A stretch of 64,000 bases of DNA from an uncultured Cyclobacteriaceae bacterium. Its GTDB lineage: Bacteria; Bacteroidota; Bacteroidia; Cytophagales; Cyclobacteriaceae. The notes below the pieces were generated by a model. It was given only the letters and a program-made list of their open reading frames with translations, was not told the DNA's origin and ran no database searches. Both the position numbers and the translations under genes were made by a program. Shown here piece after piece: positions 1,178 to 45,627 of the stretch. The stretch covers positions 1 through 64,000 of the forward strand of contig CANLOE010000009.1 in NCBI GenBank assembly GCA_947492745.1, read 5' to 3'. The first letter of the stretch is position 1, and every line of letters starts with the position of its first letter.

Positions 1178-1341
1178 AGGTATACTGATTTTGTGTTGAA
1201 GATAATCATTTTCTATAATACATCGATAAGACCTTTTGGCAAAAACGAAAAGTTATACCCAAATTAAATTGTTTTGGGACCTACTGAAACAATCAAGAAA
1301 ACACTGTTCTGCCTGGAACGGCCCAAATGACCGGTCAATAA

Positions 1342-1671
1342 ACCCAAAATGTCCATTAGAAAATCTATTCCGGACTTAACTGACTTCAAATCAGTAAATA
1401 AATACGTTTTTTGAATTCACCGTAGCGGTGCTACGCTGAATCCAAGAAAACGCACTGATTTATTGCCATTTAATACAAATTTGGGTTTTAAATGTCGTAT
1501 AAGATTGCGCGGGTCATTTTGGTTTCAATCAAGGCGATAACCGCAGGGGTAGCAGCGCTATCGCGAGGATTGTCAACGCAGAGTGAAGCAAAATGAACAG
1601 GAAGATAGGCGATATTTAAAAGCTAAGTTTGTATAAGTTCTCATGACGAAGTTCCAACGAACATTTTGGGA
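1342..1671 (+). mobile_element. R2 element nested in R5 and hosting R1
   Basis: It starts ACCCAAAATGTCC and ends CGAACATTTTGGGA, with TAA at 1339-1341 and TAA at 1672-1674. The undisturbed copy at 45461-45627 is 167 bp; this one is interrupted at its 3' part by R1. The centre carries the palindrome CGTAGCGGTGCTACG. Confidence 0.85.
1474..1633 (+). mobile_element. R1 element nested in R2
   Basis: A complete 160 bp copy. It begins TACAAATTTGGGTTTTAAA, ends AAAGCTAAGTTTGTA, and is flanked by TAA at 1471-1473 and 1634-1636. The sequence without it (GCCATT-TAA-GTTCTCATGACG) is almost the uninterrupted R2 sequence seen at 45587-45607, so this is an insertion with a 3-bp duplication. Near the centre is the palindromic core GTAGCAGCGCTATC. 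Confidence 0.92.
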
Positions 1672-1749
1672 TAAATGCAGGATTTGTCCAAGACTACGGA
1701 AATCAAATCTCCCATTTCATTTTTTGTTGAGTATAAATTAAGGAGAGTC

Positions 1750-2823
1750 CTATACAAAAAGCCCCCTGAAGTTTTTCCGGTTGGAAATCACGGAGTATTG
1801 CGCTATGATTTTCTTTCTTCCCGCCCTGCCCATGGCATCTCTTTTTTTCGGTGACAATATCAAGTCCCTTAGGTGCTCGAACCATTCCTCTTCGGTCTTG
1901 CAGATATAGCCGTTGTGACCGTGGTCTACGATATCCTTGTTGACTCCTATCGGTGACGCTACCGCAGGTATGCCCAGCGATAGATACTGTAGTGCCTTGA
2001 AGCCACACTTGCCTTGAGCCCATTGATCATCCGTAAGGGGCATGATGCCGATGTCCATCTGGTATAGGTCCGCTATCTCACTGTCCTTGCACCAAGGTTG
2101 GAAGCGGAGGGACCCGATGGCATTTAGCTTGGGGGCTTGATTGGAAATGACCAAAAACTCGTAACCTACTTCTTTCTCAAGTCTCTTGAGCACGGTATGG
2201 AGGCTTTCGAGGTAGGGCAGCGTAGAGTGGGTACCTGTCCAGCCTATGGTGACCTTATCCTTTTTTTCTTTATGGAAATGATGCGGGTTATGGAGGTGCT
2301 CGGTATCAACGGTGGTAGGGTTGATGATGACCTGGCCATTGTACTGCCGGGCATAGGCTGCCAAGTAAGCATTGCCACAACTGACCTTATGGCTCCACTT
2401 GCAGATGAGAGCTACTTTCCCATGGAACTTCAGTCGGGCCGAGAGCCGATTGGACGCAGAGGTATTGGGTAGCCATATGGCATCGTCAAAATCATAAATA
2501 ATCTTTTTCTTCAGTACCTTAGCAATGAACCACTCCACAAAAGGGGGCCCCAGAGGGCTGGCCTCGCGATGGATGAAAACATAATCATACTCCGAAACGG
2601 AAGGCAGTAACAGGAGGCGCTTGATAAAACCTGCCACGATACCAAAAAACTTTTGCCATAGATTCCCATGATGGTACAGTATGTCCCAGGTCTTTTCGGA
2701 GAGAAACGGCCGCACATGCTTGACTATACCTTCTCTATCCAGAATTTCAAAATACTGCTCGAACCGAAAACGTTGAGAGGGGGCCTTGCCTTCCGGATAG
2801 GGAGTTAAAAAAAGTATTTTCAT
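1750..2823 (-). CDS. Glycosyltransferase, GT4-like
   Basis: A 357-residue cytoplasmic glycosyltransferase with the GT-B two-domain layout. The N-terminus is a Rossmann strand (MKILFLTPYP). The C-terminal nucleotide-sugar domain includes GWTGTHSTLPYL (about residues 194-205) and the conserved block FKALQYLSLGIPAVASPIG near residue 275. It should add a hexose or similar sugar to a lipid-linked glycan; donor and acceptor cannot be read. It points away from the flippase and follows the methyltransferase-like gene in transcription order after a 0.57-kb gap filled by nested elements. The stop codon lies only 17 bases from the R5 end. Confidence 0.8.
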   Translation of the reverse strand: MKILFLTPYPEGKAPSQRFRFEQYFEILDREGIVKHVRPFLSEKTWDILYHHGNLWQKFFGIVAGFIKRLLLLPSVSEYDYVFIHREASPLGPPFVEWFIAKVLKKKIIYDFDDAIWLPNTSASNRLSARLKFHGKVALICKWSHKVSCGNAYLAAYARQYNGQVIINPTTVDTEHLHNPHHFHKEKKDKVTIGWTGTHSTLPYLESLHTVLKRLEKEVGYEFLVISNQAPKLNAIGSLRFQPWCKDSEIADLYQMDIGIMPLTDDQWAQGKCGFKALQYLSLGIPAVASPIGVNKDIVDHGHNGYICKTEEEWFEHLRDLILSPKKRDAMGRAGRKKIIAQYSVISNRKNFRGLFV

Positions 2824-5751: not shown

Positions 5752-6084
5752 TACTCAAGAAAAAATGAAATGGGAAGCCTTATCGGAAATGGCCCAGGAG
5801 AAAATCCCGTATAATGTTGAACCCGGATCATGCACTGAAAAATCTACTGCGGATCTAAATAGCTGCAAACCGGTCGTTGCACTACGTTTATTGGATTCAC
5901 CATAGCGGTGCTATGCCAAATCCAATAAAAATCCCTGATTTATGGATATGTAAACCCTCGTTACGAAGTTCCCATGCATGATCCGGGTTGAACCGTCACC
6001 GGTAGACTTGTCATTAGGGTCAGTAGAAAATAGTGGCACTTAAGTCAATGAATCATCTTGTCCCAAACCGATTGCGTTCAGGTA
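5752..6084 (+). mobile_element. R5 element hosting an R3 element
   Basis: It runs from TACTCAAGAAAAAATG to TTGCGTTCAGGTA and is flanked by TA on both sides. It is the same composite as the inverted copy at 40223-40551, with R3 at the same internal position. The R5 part alone is about 162 bp. Confidence 0.82.
5821..5988 (+). mobile_element. R3 element, 168 bp, nested in R5
   Basis: The ends ACCCGGATCATGCA and ATGCATGATCCGGGT are an almost perfect inverted repeat, flanked by TGA at 5818-5820 and 5989-5991. The core is CACCATAGCGGTGCTATG. The length equals that of the copies at 27885 and 40319. Confidence 0.88.
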
Positions 6085-31405: not shown

Positions 31406-31735
31406 ACCCAAAATGTCCATTAGAAAATCTATTCCGGACTTAATACAAACTTAGCTTTTAACTATCGCCTATCTTCCTGTTCATTTTGCTTCACTCTGCG
31501 TTGACAATCCTCGCGATAGCGCTGCTATCCCTGCGGTTATCGCCTTGATTGAAACCAAAATGACCCGCGGAATCTTATACGACATTTAAAACCCAAATTT
31601 GTATAACCGGCTTCAAATCAGTAAATGAATGCGTTTTTTGAATTAACCGTAGCGGTGCTACGTTGAATCCAAGAAAACGCCCTGATGTATTGCCATTTAA
31701 GTCCTCATGACGAAGTTCCAACGAACATTCTGGGT
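31406..31735 (+). mobile_element. R2 element hosting R1
   Basis: Starts ACCCAAAATGTCC at 31406 after TTA and ends CGAACATTCTGGGT near 31735 before TTAA. Its two halves are continuous with the undisturbed copy at 45461-45627. R1 is inserted after CCGGACTTA, closer to the 5' end than in the copy at 1342. Confidence 0.87.
31444..31603 (-). mobile_element. R1 element nested in R2
   Basis: A complete 160 bp reverse-oriented copy with TAA at 31441-31443 and 31604-31606. The empty site reads CCGGACT-TAA-CCGGCTTC; uninterrupted R2 at 1372 reads CCGGACT-TAA-CTGACTTC. Confidence 0.92.
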
Positions 31736-39722: not shown

Positions 39723-39884
39723 TACTCAAGCGCAATTGTGATTTGGGACAGGATGTTTTTTGATGGAACTGTGTTTCTTTATGAAACGTTCCCAGCGACC
39801 CGTTCACCAATGTGCAATGGACCATAGGCTTCATTACATTTGACCGTTTCGTTGAGCTTTTCCCTATTTATTTTCTCTTGGGTA
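39723..39884 (+). mobile_element. R5 element, undisturbed
   Basis: 162 bp from TACTCAAGCGCAATTG to TTCTCTTGGGTA, with TA on both sides. R1 follows immediately, sharing the flank TAA. Confidence 0.8.
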
Positions 39885-39887
39885 TAA

Positions 39888-40044
39888 TACAAACTTAGCT
39901 TTTAAAACCGCCTATCTTCCTGTTCATTATGCTTCACTCTGTGTTGACCATCCTCGGGATAGCAGCGCTATCCCTGTGGTTCTCGCCTTGATTGAAAAAA
40001 ATGACCCGCGGAGTCTTATACGACATCTGAAACCTAAATTTGTA
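39888..40044 (-). mobile_element. R1 element next to R5
   Basis: 157 bp in reverse orientation from TACAAACTTAGCTTTTAAAA to CCTAAATTTGTA, with TAA at 39885-39887 and 40045-40047. The core is GGGATAGCAGCGCTATCCC, a perfect palindrome. Confidence 0.92.
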
Positions 40045-45460: not shown

Positions 45461-45627
45461 ACCCAAAATGTCCATTAGAAAATCTATTCCGGACTTGACT
45501 GGCTTCAAATCAGTAAATGAATGCGTTTTTTGAATTCAGCGTAGCACCGCTACGGTGAATCCAAGAAAACGCCCTGATTTATTGCCATTTAAGTCCTCAT
45601 GACGAAGTTCCAACGAACATTCTGGGT
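45461..45627 (+). mobile_element. R2 element, undisturbed reference copy
   Basis: 167 bp from ACCCAAAATGTCC to CGAACATTCTGGGT with TTA at 45458-45460 and 45628-45630. The core is CGTAGCACCGCTACG. It gives the empty site for two R1 insertions. A worn element of the same type lies just left (about 45316-45448). Confidence 0.9.

Follow-up and report, generated by a model that had tools for sequence, protein, structure and literature searches.

Three MITEs nested one inside another at an intergenic site in an uncultured Cyclobacteriaceae bacterium

Results

Three elements nested between two minus-strand frames

We analysed a stretch of 64,000 bp (the window), which forms positions 1–64,000 of contig C9 in a 7.1-Mb draft genome of 458 contigs. 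Positions below are those of the window unless another contig is named. Near the start of the window, between a 294-residue frame that has no Pfam match at E 0.001 and a glycosyltransferase gene, three mobile elements (R1, R2 and R5) lie one inside another (Table 1). All three are MITEs and geneless. Each is short and transposase-free, has terminal inverted repeats and a target duplication, and occurs in many copies, the TA duplication of R5 being weak evidence taken alone because R5 itself ends in TA. Contig C9 starts inside a further R1 (positions 1–71), and repeats may be what breaks the assembly.

Table 1. Coordinates of the nested elements, their target duplications and the neighbouring frames.
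Feature	Position	Strand	Remarks
R5 (IS630-type MITE), interrupted	1256..1733	+	own parts 1256–1342 and 1676–1733; removed in peel round 3; 76.8 bits, model 1–165
R2 (IS1380-type MITE), interrupted	1343..1670	+	own parts 1343–1473 and 1637–1670; removed in peel round 2; 142.5 bits, model 1–166
R1 (IS4-type MITE), complete	1474..1633	+	175.7 bits
R5 target duplication TA	left 1254..1255; right 1734..1735		
R2 target duplication ATAAA (5 bp)	left 1338..1342; right 1671..1675		
R1 target duplication TAA	left 1471..1473; right 1634..1636		
Neighbouring glycosyltransferase gene (PF00534)	1750..2823	-	uninterrupted; relatives match up to residues 1–357 of 357
Neighbouring frame, 294 aa	293..1177	-	nest lies upstream of this frame

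A preliminary description of this DNA had proposed that R1 lies in R2 and R2 in R5. The nesting is real, as removal of the inner elements restores complete outer ones. When R1 and one TAA are taken out, the flanking parts join to a complete R2, which covers the full 166 positions of the model with a score of 142.5 bits. When R2 and one ATAAA are then taken out, a complete R5 results, scoring 76.8 bits over all 165 positions against 43.9 and 28.6 bits for its halves. Thus the halves of both outer elements join, where the preliminary description had named a failure to do so as the finding that would speak against nesting. The family matches (R1, 175.7 bits; restored R2, 142.5 bits; restored R5, 76.8 bits) exclude a chance origin of the three layers.

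Sister copies elsewhere in the genome show what the undisturbed elements look like. Restored R5 is 95.9% identical to an uninterrupted copy at C4:12560–12719, which has its own TA on both sides; the alignment is gap-free at the junction, the 15 bp of the sister that this R5 lacks lying some 15 bp to one side of it. Restored R2 is 99.4% identical to a copy at C8:64242 that is without R1, again with no gap at the junction. The R1 of the nest is itself 99.4% identical to one at C2:147777. Outside the elements, the flanks of restored R5 and R2 differ from those of their aligned sisters. Each layer was also compared with the window and with the whole genome, the three genome searches each scoring 40 of their 780, 1,099 and 144 first-look candidates.

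The same elements and duplications were returned by an automatic peel, in which complete elements with a perfect duplication are removed repeatedly; the locus was not specified, and the profiles had been seeded with copies from the window. It took out R1 (TAA), then R2 (ATAAA), then R5 (TA). The profiles place the boundaries of R1 and R5 exactly where they had first been drawn. R2 stands as an element, but the ends at first assigned to it, 1342 and 1671, each move one base inward. Likewise, the direct repeats TAA of R1 and TA of R5 hold, whereas the TAA first given for R2 is part of its 5-bp ATAAA. The reference copies to which the preliminary description had pointed were located at 39723–39884 (R5), 45462–45626 (R2) and 39888–40044 (R1).

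Ends, duplications and copy numbers of the three families

A 1.26-Mb part of the genome (sample 1) served to build the family profiles; a second 1.2 Mb (sample 2) was kept out of this step. R1 is about 160 bp long, with ends TACAAAYTTRG and CTAAGTTTGTA, and duplicates a 3-bp TWA. The duplication is perfect in 97 of 109 end-complete copies (51 TAA, 45 TTA and 1 TTG). R2, about 166 bp, has ends CCCAAAATGT and ACATTYTGGG in the kind found at the nest, and its 5-bp duplication, TTNAA as read from the sequence logo, is perfect in 74 of 133 end-complete copies. The R2 profile spans several subfamilies, with a mean pairwise identity of 68.5% over 86 copies. R5, about 160 bp, has ends TACCCAAAC and TTGAGTA and is flanked by a TA duplication in 33 of 47 copies. 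Imperfect duplications thus make up 12/109 for R1, 59/133 for R2 and 14/47 for R5 in sample 1.

Hits covering at least 100 model positions number 126 and 110 for R1 in the two samples, 209 and 206 for R2, and 63 and 44 for R5. This amounts to 236 R1, 415 R2-type and 107 R5 hits in 2.46 Mb, or 35% of the genome. All hits of the three profiles together cover 5.4% of the bases in sample 1 and 5.1% in sample 2. Scaled to 7.1 Mb, these counts extrapolate to some 680 R1, 1,200 R2 and 310 R5, together about 2,200, a figure in which fragments of interrupted elements may count twice.

Candidate source elements

A complete IS4-type element of 1,680 bp, flanked by TAA on both sides, lies at C90:22125–23804. 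The R1 consensus agrees with it in 84 of 90 bases on the left and in 70 of 78 on the right. Its transposase is an open 411-residue frame, listed mechanically with a GTG start. The frame matches NF033592, the IS4 family, with 160 bits against a cut-off of 115, as well as PF01609; the motif Y(2)R(3)E(6)K occurs at residue 280, and a search of the PDB gave no match at E 0.001. R1 is best read as an internal-deletion derivative of this IS4-family element, its middle being the deletion joint, because its ends match those of the C90 element around the open transposase frame. As expected for a MITE of such an element, R1 shares both its ends and its duplication with an element of its own genome that encodes a transposase.

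Other sources for R1 were looked for among 14 stretches matching PF01609, of which two IS4-type ones lie between R1 ends: the C90 element, the only complete copy of the R1-source transposase found in the genome, and a relic on C19. A third, on C14, is IS1380-type and interrupts an R1. For IS4 relatives of the element in other genomes, a simple scan found neither ends nor duplications. The R1 source departs from its family in its target. Whereas IS4 duplications span 7–13 bp in the 2008 survey of the family (PMC2266710), here the duplication is 3 bp: 175 of 177 R1 sites are TWA, and the one complete element has TAA on both sides. With the YREK motif present yet a duplication of 3 bp, we regard the R1 source as IS4-like in its transposase and aberrant in its target, and do not file it as a full IS4 member.

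Links for the two other families are weaker. IS630 elements make a TA duplication, those of the IS1380 family one of 4–5 bp. R2 may share ends and target with a relic of an IS1380-family element on C111, a candidate relation that draws on the left end of this one relic: 22–26 bp of it are shared with R2-type ends, at 92–100% identity with 11 places in sample 1, and it is preceded by TTTAA, a flank of the TTNAA type. The transposase of the relic is split over two frames (NF033539, 79 and 113 bits; cut-off 180), and its right end lies beyond the contig. No complete IS1380-family source for R2 was found in the genome, where PF13701 gives six broken or partial stretches on five contigs. The C14 relic was also considered as the R2 source, since R2-like end motifs lie nearby, and was rejected, as its own ends differ. 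It sits inside an R1, so some R1 insertions were themselves followed by transposition of the IS1380 type.

R5, in turn, resembles at its short ends an IS630-family element on C6, which is 1,103 bp long with an open 344-residue frame and TA on both sides. The left end shares its first 10 bp with R5 and, further in, GGGACAA; the right end agrees over about 25 bp with 3 mismatches. We regard the C6 element as an example of a candidate source for R5. This element sits inside an R2, so full elements, not MITEs alone, land in R2.

Nests recur across the sampled genome

In sample 1 the strict peel took out 220 elements (99 R1, 86 R2 and 35 R5) and returned a single three-layer nest, the locus described here. 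From sample 2 it removed 190 (79 R1, 87 R2 and 24 R5), again with one three-layer nest, an R1 in an R2 in an R2 on C20. A second nest of R1 in R2 in R5 lies at C4:24593–25073, with R1 and R2 at other positions in their hosts than here. Restored R2 scores 88.9 bits at this place. For R5 the score is 68.4 bits after restoration, its separate halves having 28.1 and 31.8. R1 is flanked by TTA on both sides, and the strict peel missed the nest because the duplication of R2 is imperfect. Hence the 2.46 Mb hold at least three three-layer nests, two found by the strict peel and one on C4, and nests with worn duplications escape the strict rule.

Among two-layer nests, R1 in R2 is common. R1 lies in R2 for 33 of 109 R1 copies in sample 1, and for 57 of 176 across both samples. 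The reverse, R2 in R1, accounts for 3 of 133 R2 copies, one with a perfect duplication, and R2 in R5 for 4 of 133, one of them with a perfect R2 duplication. R5 lies in R2 in 3 of 47 copies and in R1 in 1 of 47; sample 2 adds one R5 in R2. Members of the same family also nest, with 11 cases of R2 in R2, 2 of R5 in R5 and 1 of R1 in R1 in sample 1. At C2:125236–125549, an R1 lies inside another, more diverged R1.

The window itself holds another R1-in-R2 nest at 31407–31734, where R1 lies near R2 model position 37, the mirror of position 130. Three more R5s on C9 (5750–6084, 40224–40553 and C9:74411–74739) carry an R2 at approximately the same central site, while the R2-in-R5 cases on other contigs of sample 1 lie elsewhere within R5. 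Such nests arise from the great number of the elements, from their mostly intergenic placement and from the target sequences that they carry for one another.

Three serial insertions are the best explanation

The locus is best explained by three MITEs inserted serially into one intergenic spot, a reading to which we assign a probability of about 0.93; the transposase of a full element that shares its ends probably mobilised each of them in trans. The containment, the duplications, the closing junctions, the shared ends and the copy numbers in the samples are all observed directly, and together they suggest mobilisation by the transposases of such elements. The IS630-type R5 would have entered a TA first, moved by an IS630-family element such as the one on C6. 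The IS1380-type R2 would then have entered ATAAA in the middle of R5, through the transposase of an IS1380-family element that is known here from broken or partial copies alone. Finally, the IS4-type R1 would have entered TAA near the right end of R2, mobilised by the transposase of the C90 element.

This order, R5, R2, R1, had already been proposed in the preliminary description, and it is supported by the closing junctions, by duplications of the length typical of each family and by family divergence. Median nearest-neighbour identity is 85.9% for R5 (n=35), 95.1% for R2 (n=86) and 98.7% for R1 (n=99), so that the divergence estimated from these sequences agrees with the order of containment. 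As R2 in R5 and R5 in R2 are both seen, the active periods of the two families overlapped.

Judged by this locus alone, R1 could already have been inside R2 when R2 arrived in R5. The corresponding alternative is that R1 entered R2 elsewhere and the 328-bp composite then jumped into R5, making two arrivals instead of three. The composite is in principle mobilisable, as the R2 ends and the 5-bp duplication are intact, and a perfect outer duplication is kept in 12 of the 57 R1-in-R2 cases. Yet R1 occupies about this place and orientation (model 130–139) in 10 of the 57, this one included, and the other R2s are less than 90% like the R2 of the nest. Conversely, the three composites whose R2 is at least 90% alike carry R1 at positions 36–37 and in opposite orientation. 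Where two cases agree in the site and orientation of R1, the R1s of the 14 closest pairs are 89.8–98.1% alike, no closer than R1s are generally in the 35% of the genome sampled, and the sister R2 on C8 has no R1. Prior assembly of a composite is accordingly very unlikely in our view, and among the 57 R1-in-R2 cases (176 R1 tested) there is no sign of moving composites.

The R2s inside R5 point the same way. In four R5s on C9, an R2 sits near one common central position. The inner R2s at 5822 and 40320 are of one kind and 89.8% alike, but each has closer relatives elsewhere (93.4% and 94.4%), and the other pairs are 68–73% alike. Since the inner R2s differ or have closer relatives elsewhere, the central R5 site was probably hit repeatedly. 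Movement of R1 with R2, or of R2 with R5, as a unit was considered as the usual route and rejected, given same-site R1s without shared ancestry and central R2s that are mostly unlike.

Serial insertion also has to be set against a function for the nest as a whole. A selected structure such as a regulatory RNA or a terminator could be imagined from the near-palindromic R2, the similar middle of R1 and the position upstream of a minus-strand frame. We give this idea scarcely any weight: Rfam has no match in the window at the gathering threshold, copies of each layer occur at many other sites, and the middle of R1 is best accounted for as the deletion joint of an IS4 element. We give least credence of all to a chimeric join made within a repeat during assembly. 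The draft is fragmented and holds hundreds of closely similar R1 copies, and its contig C9 opens within one of them; but duplications match on both sides at every layer, both sides match the same sister elements, and R1 in R2 recurs across the sample. Moreover, a false join inside R1 would hardly unite halves of R2 and of R5 with matching duplications.

Target supply and the abundance of R1 in R2

Among 177 R1 sites, 58 (33%) lie inside R2 and 17 (10%) in the duplication at an R2 edge, 75 in all. Intergenic TWA sites are distributed differently, with 11.5% inside R2 and 3.3% at an R2 edge, about 15% together. The intergenic calls behind these percentages are rough, being based on open frames of at least 100 residues; 159 of the 177 R1 sites are intergenic by them. 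The 95 R1 sites outside R2 show a symmetric preference, W-N-TWA-N-W, and weighting by this motif raises the expectation to 24% inside R2 and 4% at the edge, 28% in total. Target supply therefore explains much, not all, of the excess of R1 in R2. A special mechanism directing R1 to R2 was rejected on this account, the 33% observed inside R2 being largely explained by the 24% expected.

Discussion

Nested mobile elements are already known in prokaryotes, and the process at work in the locus described here is an ordinary one, in a setting that is clear and rich in elements. For Haloquadratum walsbyi, 192 cases of an element within an element have been tabulated, MITEs included (PMC3119063). That genome resembles the present one in being prokaryotic with hundreds of transposase-free elements. 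It is, however, an archaeal genome; in the published tabulation SMR-A elements account for more than half of the cases and the targets are mostly PATEs or IS605-type elements (PMC3119063). Here, by contrast, the host is a bacterium, and each layer is a MITE (IS4-, IS1380- or IS630-type) flanked by a target duplication.

In being short, geneless and mostly intergenic, with inverted ends, the three families resemble the Correia and ERIC elements as these are described in a review of bacterial MITEs (PMC10969869), which quotes 711 ERIC copies for Photorhabdus luminescens. They differ in that three unrelated families are present, with an extrapolated 2,200 or so copies together. The word 'nested' is absent from the main text of the review (PMC10969869), and our literature searches found no nested bacterial MITEs of the IS4, IS1380 or IS630 types.

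The least ordinary feature is the 3-bp TWA duplication made by the IS4-type source of R1. In the 2008 survey, the IS4 subgroups of Table 1 duplicate 7–13 bp, ISPepr1 7–8 bp among them, and three emerging families 4–6 bp (PMC2266710). With the ISPepr1 subgroup as described there, the R1 source shares the transposase motif Y(2)R(3)E(6)K and AT-rich targets; compared by eye, the R1 ends, TACAAAYTT, agree with those of ISPepr1 at 6 of 8 specified bases (6 of the first 7), whereas the duplication of 3 bp (TWA) stands against 7–8 bp (PMC2266710). Set against the subgroups of that survey, it is an evenly balanced proposition that R1 and its source represent an undescribed IS4 subgroup (YREK, ends TACAAAYTTRG) that switched from a duplication of 7–13 bp to a 3-bp TWA within W-N-TWA-N-W, and that the abundance of this target in R2 made R2 a main landing ground for R1. 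A 3-bp duplication by an IS4-type element, if right, widens the known behaviour of the family, and it is directly testable.

On the reading of three serial insertions, the locus records three transposon waves within 478 bp, which the many two-layer cases of the genome, such as the 57 of 176 R1 copies in R2, can calibrate. More broadly, this is a bacterium in which three families of short geneless elements account for some 5% of the DNA sampled, and for the youngest of them a single complete source gene was found.

Beyond the host, we searched draws of 59, 291 and 390 genomes, and the genus of the host is absent among the genomes listed, which are all 59 of the first draw and part of the others. 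An empty site, lacking the insertions, came to light neither in these draws nor among the listed relatives of the flanking gene. R1 was found in 1 of 59 relatives (up to 14 candidates scored per genome) and, across the order, in 1 of 390 genomes (two candidates scored per genome), the one being the host each time. For R2, weak matches were seen in 4 of 58 other genomes, and relatives of the R1 transposase, at no more than 43% identity, occur in 9 of 290 other genomes. For the flanking glycosyltransferase, most of the 80 relatives listed belong to Hymenobacter and other Bacteroidota, which suggests that the host is placed in or close to the Cytophagales; the nearest in this listing, from which records very near the host may be missing, is 60% identical.
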